From the NCBI RefSeq assembly GCF_002959775.1, contig NZ_PPCX01000010.1:372001-436000 (forward strand): 64,000 nt of DNA, given 5' to 3'. This DNA is from Veillonella rogosae JCM 15642. GTDB lineage: Bacteria; Bacillota; Negativicutes; Veillonellales; Veillonellaceae. The position numbers and the translations under genes are program-made. The notes under the pieces are model-generated. The model was given only the letters and a program-made list of their open reading frames with translations, did not search any database and was not told the origin of the DNA. Numbering within the stretch: position 1 is the stretch's first letter; each line of letters starts with the position of its first letter. Below are positions 16,574-17,780 of the stretch, in pieces.

Positions 16574-17347
16574 TTACGCAACGCACAAAGAGCCGTCTAA
16601 TACTTTCAGATTATACACGAGACCAAGTCGCACCAAACCATGTAAGGCAACCGCCGTTACAGGATTAATGGAACCGAACACACCAGCACCGATGATGCCT
16701 ATGTGGAATAGAACGGACACGATGAGCAGGCCCAAATGACACTGTTTTGCCTCTTTTGAAAGCTCTGCCGTCGGAGAATTATTATCCACAAGGGAGCCCA
16801 TCATGAGCGCCACGAGAATGAGCTCCAAAGAGCATGGGCAAAGCACTAATAACAAGGTCGCCGTATGCATGAGATCACCAGTTAATGCAAAGGATCCCAT
16901 GGATAGCAACATAACGGCCACGACGATAACCGATGAATAGTTATTGATACCTTGACGCAATGCTACAAGCTGTGTTGGCATAGTCGGTAACATATCAACA
17001 TCCAAGGTGTAATGCGTCTCACCTGTAATGAGCTGCTCCAAGAAGAAGCCAGCGTGCACCATGATACCCACATAAGCCGCTGTATGATAATCACCAACGG
17101 CGATGAGCGCTACCATAGCTACAACAATAAGAAAATTAGCGTGAATCTCTAAATTATCCCAAATGCTCTGCACACTATTAATCAGCAATGGCAACCCACA
17201 AACGATAACAGTGACCCAAGCCAAATCAATGACTGGATACAAAGGCTCTGTGATTAAATCTAATAGTATAAACAAAATACCTAGCGCCAAAATGCTACCT
17301 TGCGTACGCAACGACACCTGCGCTACTAATGATTGTAAAAGCTTCAT
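16574..17347 (-). CDS. P1B-ATPase-like membrane protein lacking the actuator, phosphorylation and nucleotide domains
   Basis: A 257-residue membrane protein whose helices match those of heavy-metal P-type ATPases. Residues ~60-100 (E-I-H-A-N-F-L-I-V-V-A-M-V-A) resemble the pre-actuator helices. Residues ~140-180 hold the helix with L-V-L-C-P-C-S-L-E-L, the C-P-C metal-site motif of transporting ATPases. Residues ~200-255 resemble the two C-terminal helices. The actuator domain is shrunk to ~25 residues and the D-K-T-G-T phosphorylation site and ATP-binding domain are absent. No frameshift or stop explains this. It cannot be an ATPase by itself; a metal-binding or regulatory role is possible. 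A CsoR-like operator lies upstream. Confidence 0.7.
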   Translation of the reverse strand: MKLLQSLVAQVSLRTQGSILALGILFILLDLITEPLYPVIDLAWVTVIVCGLPLLINSVQSIWDNLEIHANFLIVVAMVALIAVGDYHTAAYVGIMVHAGFFLEQLITGETHYTLDVDMLPTMPTQLVALRQGINNYSSVIVVAVMLLSMGSFALTGDLMHTATLLLVLCPCSLELILVALMMGSLVDNNSPTAELSKEAKQCHLGLLIVSVLFHIGIIGAGVFGSINPVTAVALHGLVRLGLVYNLKVLDGSLCVA

Positions 17348-17411
17348 AAATACCTCTCTAGGTACTAGAACCGGCCAAACTCAGTCCGGAAAGAAATACA
17401 AAAACAAAACA

Positions 17412-17427
17412 ATACCCATAGGGGTAT
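17412..17427 (-). promoter_or_regulatory. CsoR/RcnR-type metal-repressor operator
   Basis: The palindrome ATACCCATAGGGGTAT closely matches the CsoR-family operator (ATACCC-N-GGGTAT type). It lies ~65 bp upstream of the minus-strand start of the P1B-ATPase-like gene, in promoter position, implying copper- or nickel-type control. Confidence 0.7.
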
Positions 17428-17500
17428 ATCTACGGTACAAATATTATACATAAAATACGTAATAAATACAAATTAAAATTATTGATAAGTAAGAACGCTG

Positions 17501-17665
17501 TATTGAAGATTTAAATTTCTTCATTAGACGTAGAAAGAACAGGTCCCTAAAAACGACTTAGCTCGCTTTGGAGACCTTTTAATAAGTCTTAGTTGAAGAT
17601 ACTGATTTCATATAAAAAGAAAAGCCCCCATCTCTAAAAATGACTTAACACTAAGAGGTATTAGT
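17501..17665. repeat. Decayed copies of the conserved-loop hairpin element
   Basis: At 17525-17573 the 3'-side arm and loop core of the element at 17671-17780 are repeated almost exactly (arm AGAAAGAACAGGTCCCTAAA plus loop core ACGACTTAGCTCGCTTTGGA), but the other arm is missing. A more decayed loop (TGACTTAACACTAAGAGG) is at ~17641-17658. They look like tandem partial duplications. Confidence 0.7.
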
Positions 17666-17670
17666 TGATA

Positions 17671-17780
17671 GCTCTAATTTCTTTATTAGATGTAGAAAGA
17701 ACAGGTCCCTAAAAACGACTTAGCTCGCTTTGGAGGCTTTTAGGGACCTGTTCTTTCGGTTACTGATATGAAATTAGAGC
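17671..17780 (-). repeat. Long hairpin element with conserved apical loop, copy 1
   Basis: Outer stem GCTCTAATTTC (17671-17681) with GAAATTAGAGC (17770-17780). Inner 20-bp perfect stem 17695-17714 with 17738-17757. Apical loop from 17715 has core ACGACTTAGCTCGCTTTGGA. The outer arm overlaps the stop codon of the ArsC/Spx-like gene. Stems differ wholly from those of copies at 54281, 55077 and 62336; the loop does not. Confidence 0.85.

Follow-up and report, generated by a model that had tools for sequence, protein, structure and literature searches.

In P-type ATPases, the membrane domain is driven by the cytoplasmic ones. The PacL1-CtpC pair of Mycobacterium tuberculosis includes a small membrane protein without catalytic activity that is encoded beside a P1B exporter and aids metal resistance (PMC9374683). 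In ZntA and sCoaT, the glutamates E202 and E120, respectively, act as transient release ligands (PMC8880997). In Synechocystis, a bacterium without NikR, the region upstream of the nik import operon is bound by InrS, a CsoR-family sensor of Ni(II) (PMC7055735). The open-access literature that we searched held no description of a conserved membrane-only P1B protein, and no literature on the protein reported here was found for Veillonella.

A P1B membrane domain with short linkers in place of its cytoplasmic loops

The window analyzed here is a 64,000-nucleotide stretch of DNA from Veillonella rogosae JCM 15642. Its minus strand encodes, at 16574-17347, a 257-residue protein (the short protein), which an earlier note had taken for a P1B-ATPase of which only the membrane part is left. 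The gene and the two linkers that define it are as follows.

16574-17347, minus strand: membrane-only P1B-type protein, 257 aa, with eight predicted helices (open reading frame, alignment, profile-profile comparison, orthologues)
16937-17023, minus strand: residues ~109-137, a ~30-residue linker standing in for the whole actuator (A) domain (alignment, profile-profile comparison)
16739-16786, minus strand: residues ~188-203, a ~15-20-residue linker standing in for the P and N domains, DKTGT etc. (alignment)

Alignment to full-length P1B ATPases of the same genus gave the order MA, MB, M1, M2, linker, M3, M4 with CPC, linker, M5 and M6. The match to intact ATPases stops at ATPase residues ~153/256, where the A domain is missing, and restarts only at M5-M6, with the P and N domains missing. 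Profile-profile comparison with ATPases of the neighboring type gave a probability of 99.1% (E 1.3e-18) and placed the ATPase insertions at the A domain position. The NCBIfam model TIGR01512 (Cd-type ATPase) matched all five members scanned (E 1e-4 to 1e-5) at residues 71-116 only, and the score for the short protein, 21.2 bits, was far under the cut-off of 313.5. Pfam has no family for the short protein, and a PDB sequence search using the short-form profile returned no match. Hydropathy and two weak AlphaFold models were consistent with eight transmembrane helices; with a pLDDT of 53-54, the models were insufficient to display a metal site. A Foldseek search with the first model returned generic helical bundles only and was not used.

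The short protein thus has what marks a P1B membrane domain, eight helices with a CPC/SPC-type motif in M4. As the earlier note had it, CPC is kept (residues 170-172) and DKTGT is lost; the DKTGT site and the P domain are absent from all 10 short proteins, and the short protein also lacks TGES, the HP motif of the nucleotide-binding domain and GDGxND. The note was right that the actuator had suffered a loss, but not about its extent, since the whole domain, rather than most of it, is missing in the alignment. The reading frame, which the note had called unbroken, is indeed so in 10 of the 14 genus genomes. These results confirmed the short protein as a P1B metal ATPase pared down to its membrane part, short linkers having taken the place of both cytoplasmic loops. 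Because it is without any ATP-using motif, it would not pump.

Three intramembrane positions stood out in the alignment.

16832-16840, minus strand: C170-P171-C172, the metal-site motif of M4, kept in 9 of 10 short proteins and CPS in G003 (alignment)
16703-16705, minus strand: H215 in M5, Asn in the full ATPases (alignment)
16640-16642, minus strand: H236 in M6, the counterpart of the His in the VHNGGS motif of the full ATPases (alignment)

C170, P171, C172 and H236 are retained from the full ATPases in 9 of 10 short proteins, and the newly acquired H215 is fixed in the same proportion. To judge by alignment, C170, C172, H215 and H236 would together form one metal site. Such binding would not extend to the whole family, since in G003, which branches first, CPS, Tyr and Phe occupy these positions and both His residues are lost. 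Residues conserved among the short proteins and missing from the ATPases are H88, Y92, H161 and K201; H88 is fixed in 10/10, and Tyr replaces ATPase residue E92 in 10/10. We considered E92 as the equivalent of the ZntA release glutamate and weakened that claim, because the alignment sets it one helical turn from the position of ZntA E202 and sCoaT E120.

Conservation of the short gene and decay of its parent pump

The full 257-residue gene was found in 9 of the 14 Veillonella genomes, the window's included, with the other eight proteins 80-85% identical to the window's; the loci include those of V. parvula SKV38 and V. denticariosi JCM 15641. G003 carries a diverged 262-residue relative (35% identity), G001 has the ATPase without the short gene, and G002 lacks the short gene and retains an ATPase remnant. 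Outside the genus, no short-form relative turned up among 61 genomes of the order or in the evenly drawn samples of the class (350 genomes) and the phylum (398 genomes), nor was one found on plasmids. The earlier note had proposed comparing orthologue lengths across Veillonella, full-length orthologues pointing to a deletion in this one; the orthologues proved to be of the same length. Orthologues of the same architecture in 10 genomes ruled out a recent deletion or an assembly artefact. Pairwise dN/dS of the short gene was 0.02-0.10, with dS saturated in the most distant pairs and the argument borne by the close ones, and neither a stop nor a length change occurred in the nine genomes. The short gene is a fixed gene under strong selection.

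In a tree built from the helices, the short proteins formed one long-branched clade (support 100/100) that joined the full-length ATPases of its own locus (89/96). G003 has the two genes immediately adjacent in head-to-tail orientation, and an opposite-strand gene for an MFS-type transporter separates them in G004 and G010. Tandem duplication followed by loss of the loops in one copy fits both the tree and the gene order.

The neighboring ATPase is intact in 3 of the 10 genomes with a short gene and is deleted or reduced to scraps in the other seven, among them the window's. In G008, G009 and G012, the scrap consists of ATPase residues 247-304, with CPC, fused out of frame to residues 572-664 (M5-M6); this common deletion junction indicates that the ATPase was dead before these three genomes split. 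Only residues 538-570 are left in G005 and G006, and no remnant was detectable in G011 or the window's genome. In G002, a 75-residue open reading frame (L134:4362-4666), located beyond a nitroreductase gene and behind two CsoR-type sites 35 bp apart, resembles an N-terminal scrap of the lost ATPase.

Among G008, G009 and G012, dN/dS of the short gene is 0.02-0.035. Because it stays this low after the common ATPase deletion, the short gene is selected without the neighboring pump. An obligatory subunit of the adjacent ATPase is therefore ruled out for most species, and with it, in that form, the earlier suggestion of a partner to a full ATPase. The note had proposed looking for a full-length copA; other full-length P1B ATPases are kept in all 14 genomes, and one of them may be a partner. 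G005, G006 and G011 have neither the neighboring ATPase nor the other ATPase of the HN type, so that any partner there would be of the commoner CopA, ZntA or 716-residue types.

A CsoR-type operator and the candidate inducing metals

The region upstream of the short gene carries the following elements.

17466-17471, minus strand: -35-like box TTGTAT, 17 bp upstream of the -10 box (sequence, alignment)
17443-17448, minus strand: -10 box TATAAT, invariant in 10 genomes (alignment)
17412-17427, no strand assigned: CsoR-type operator ATACCCATAGGGGTAT, 15 nt downstream of the -10 box (site scan, alignment)
17371-17389, minus strand: conserved leader element CCGG-N11-CCGG (alignment, genome scan)
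17353-17359, minus strand: ribosome-binding site AGAGAGG (sequence, alignment)

The palindrome ATACCCCTATGGGTAT lies 15 nt past TTGTAT-17-TATAAT, and its form agrees with published type-2 CsoR operators (PMC3902906). It is near-invariant at fixed spacing in 10/10 loci, compared with an average of 76% for the remaining well-filled upstream columns; G003 retains the -10 box and most of the operator. The window holds one perfect site, compared with none in 100 shuffles, and the whole genome holds two, compared with about 0.1 expected from base composition. The CsoR-type operator claimed in the earlier note is therefore upheld, as a perfect site kept in the orthologues. Each intact ATPase promoter has two such palindromes, and in G010, G004 and G001 one of the two sits inside the -35/-10 spacer.

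The leader element, which has a conserved AGT/G core and closely precedes the ribosome-binding site, occurs in 9 of 10 short-gene loci and has no further copy in the genome. Rfam gave no match for it; an RNA hairpin was considered, but the sole stem change (G010) is uncompensated. Farther upstream, between an ArsC/Spx-like gene and the short gene, the 28-base intergenic repeat GAACAGGTCCCTAAAAACGACTTAGCTC occurs in two exact copies 162 bp apart (window 17537-17564 and 17699-17726), and a similar sequence lies upstream of the G009 orthologue.

The earlier note had also suggested looking for csoR elsewhere. A CsoR-family gene is present in all 14 genomes, two in G001 and one in each of the others, and is unlinked to the short-gene locus. 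The repressor has the ligand pattern Cys-His-Cys (C34, H59, C63); the metal cannot be named from it, because Pro and Asp replace Y35 and E81 of M. tuberculosis CsoR. The same palindrome precedes genes for NikA-like binding proteins; in the window's genome it lies 14 nt past a -10-like box. The NikA-like proteins score under the NikA cut-offs. NikR was found in none of the 14 Veillonella genomes.

L075:5777 and L078:4603 (G000:C1:52776 and G008:C1:145602): CsoR-type palindrome before NikA-like ABC transporter genes

Since genes for a P1B ATPase and for NikA-like proteins lie behind the same type of operator, nickel is as credible as copper, and the inducing metal may be either. In some species, the palindrome of a second nik-like ABC operon adjoins a Fur-box-like sequence (AATGATAATGATTCT / AATGAGAATCATTCT); from these sites, this metal importer is seemingly controlled by a CsoR-family protein and a Fur-like one together.

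Function of the short protein and comparison with known systems

We tentatively favor a metal-induced, non-catalytic membrane protein that would bind metal as an accessory or buffer, a reading for which we claim somewhat less than an even chance. A P1B-type heavy-metal exporter would have been duplicated in tandem, and in an ancestor of the genus one copy would have shed both cytoplasmic loops and become fixed as a membrane protein without catalytic activity. The one CsoR-family repressor of the genome would block the promoter from just downstream of the transcription start, and a rise in Cu(I) or Ni(II) would switch on the short gene together with the NikA-like binding protein and, in genomes that still have it, the exporter. 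The short protein might then hold metal within the membrane, unpumped, as a buffer or relay aiding the other exporters that every genome keeps. A wider formulation seems possible but doubtful to us: an ATP-independent membrane metal protein, channel or buffer, that may have arisen from a loop-less P-type ATPase, working alone under a CsoR-family switch and outliving the parent pump in most Veillonella species.

The main rival, which we consider unlikely, is a passive metal channel or uniporter, in which the P1B pore minus its ATP-driven gates would let metal flow down its gradient, possibly for uptake with the NikA-like proteins. None of the eight helices or metal-site residues has been lost, the short gene functions without its ATPase neighbor, and its promoter is laid out much like the one of the NikA-like gene. 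InrS binds upstream of the nik operon in Synechocystis, which has no NikR (PMC7055735), and NikR was not found in the 14 Veillonella genomes either. However, if the repressor lets go when metal is plentiful, the resulting inward leak would be ill-timed, and ATPase residue E92, a single helical turn away from the glutamate through which ZntA and sCoaT release metal (PMC8880997), is Tyr in every short protein.

A role in sensing metal at the membrane or in regulation, or as a negative (dominant) partner to other P1B ATPases, appears improbable. A metal site without a pump would suit sensing, and the new conserved residues H88, Y92, H161 and K201 could serve such a role, but there is no signaling domain, the cytoplasmic linkers are short, and the short gene is not co-retained with the original ATPase. 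We find it similarly hard to credit that the protein has departed from metal biology altogether, its helical scaffold reused and its operator a leftover of metal control. In G003, the frame, the -10 box and most of the operator persist after the loss of CPC and both His residues; set against this, all four candidate ligands occur in 9/10 short proteins and the operator is among the best-conserved parts of the promoter. A decaying, still unbroken pseudogene, which the decay of the neighboring ATPase in the same genomes and the loss of CPC in a second reduced P1B line of another family of the class might suggest, is scarcely credible and was rejected on the dN/dS of 0.02-0.10, with the absence of stops and length changes in nine genomes and the fixed promoter also against it.

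This second line was found in one genus (g46) of another Negativicutes family, where seven genomes carry a different reduced P1B-like protein, of 402 residues in G190 (L132:5590-6798) and in frames of ~270-320 residues in the six others (L137-L142). These proteins resemble the short protein as P1B derivatives in which the A domain is missing and DKTGT and GDGxND are not intact, but they keep a dead, degenerate and shrunken P-domain remnant, six are without M1-M2, most are without CPC, and they probably come from another P1B branch. Their C-terminal EKKFAF stretch is strikingly conserved, and the G190 gene adjoins a gene resembling that for ribosomal protein S20. With this line beside the Veillonella short form, the catalytic parts of P1B ATPases have been lost at least twice here.

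Compared with the Cd/Zn-type P1B ATPases (CadA, ZntA; TIGR01512, TIGR01525) and the full-length CPC/HNGGS ATPase of the same locus, the short protein shares the helix order MA, MB, M1-M6, the CPC motif of M4 and the His of M6. It differs in lacking the actuator, phosphorylation and nucleotide domains, which makes ATP use impossible; the helices are 26-30% identical, with Asn changed to His in M5 and ATPase E92 to Tyr. The putative regulon resembles those of CsoR and InrS in its TACCC-type palindrome, in the P1B exporter behind the same operator and in the Cys-His-Cys ligands of the repressor (PMC3902906, PMC7055735). InrS additionally acts on a nik importer (PMC7055735), a likeness to the NikA-like genes here, whereas the Veillonella set differs in including a membrane-only P1B protein and in having csoR unlinked.

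A membrane-only gene kept after the death of its parent pump is a natural test of what the membrane domain does alone, be it holding metal, leaking it or helping a pump. The PacL1 gene encodes a non-catalytic membrane protein beside a P1B ATPase (PMC9374683), an arrangement that holds here in G003, holds with one gene between in G004 and G010 and does not hold in seven genomes. Compared by architecture, PacL1 has a transmembrane domain, cytoplasmic Glu/Ala repeats and a C-terminal metal-binding motif (PMC9374683), whereas the short protein has eight helices and no such repeats. PacL1 is required by its ATPase (PMC9374683), whereas the Veillonella short gene outlives its own.
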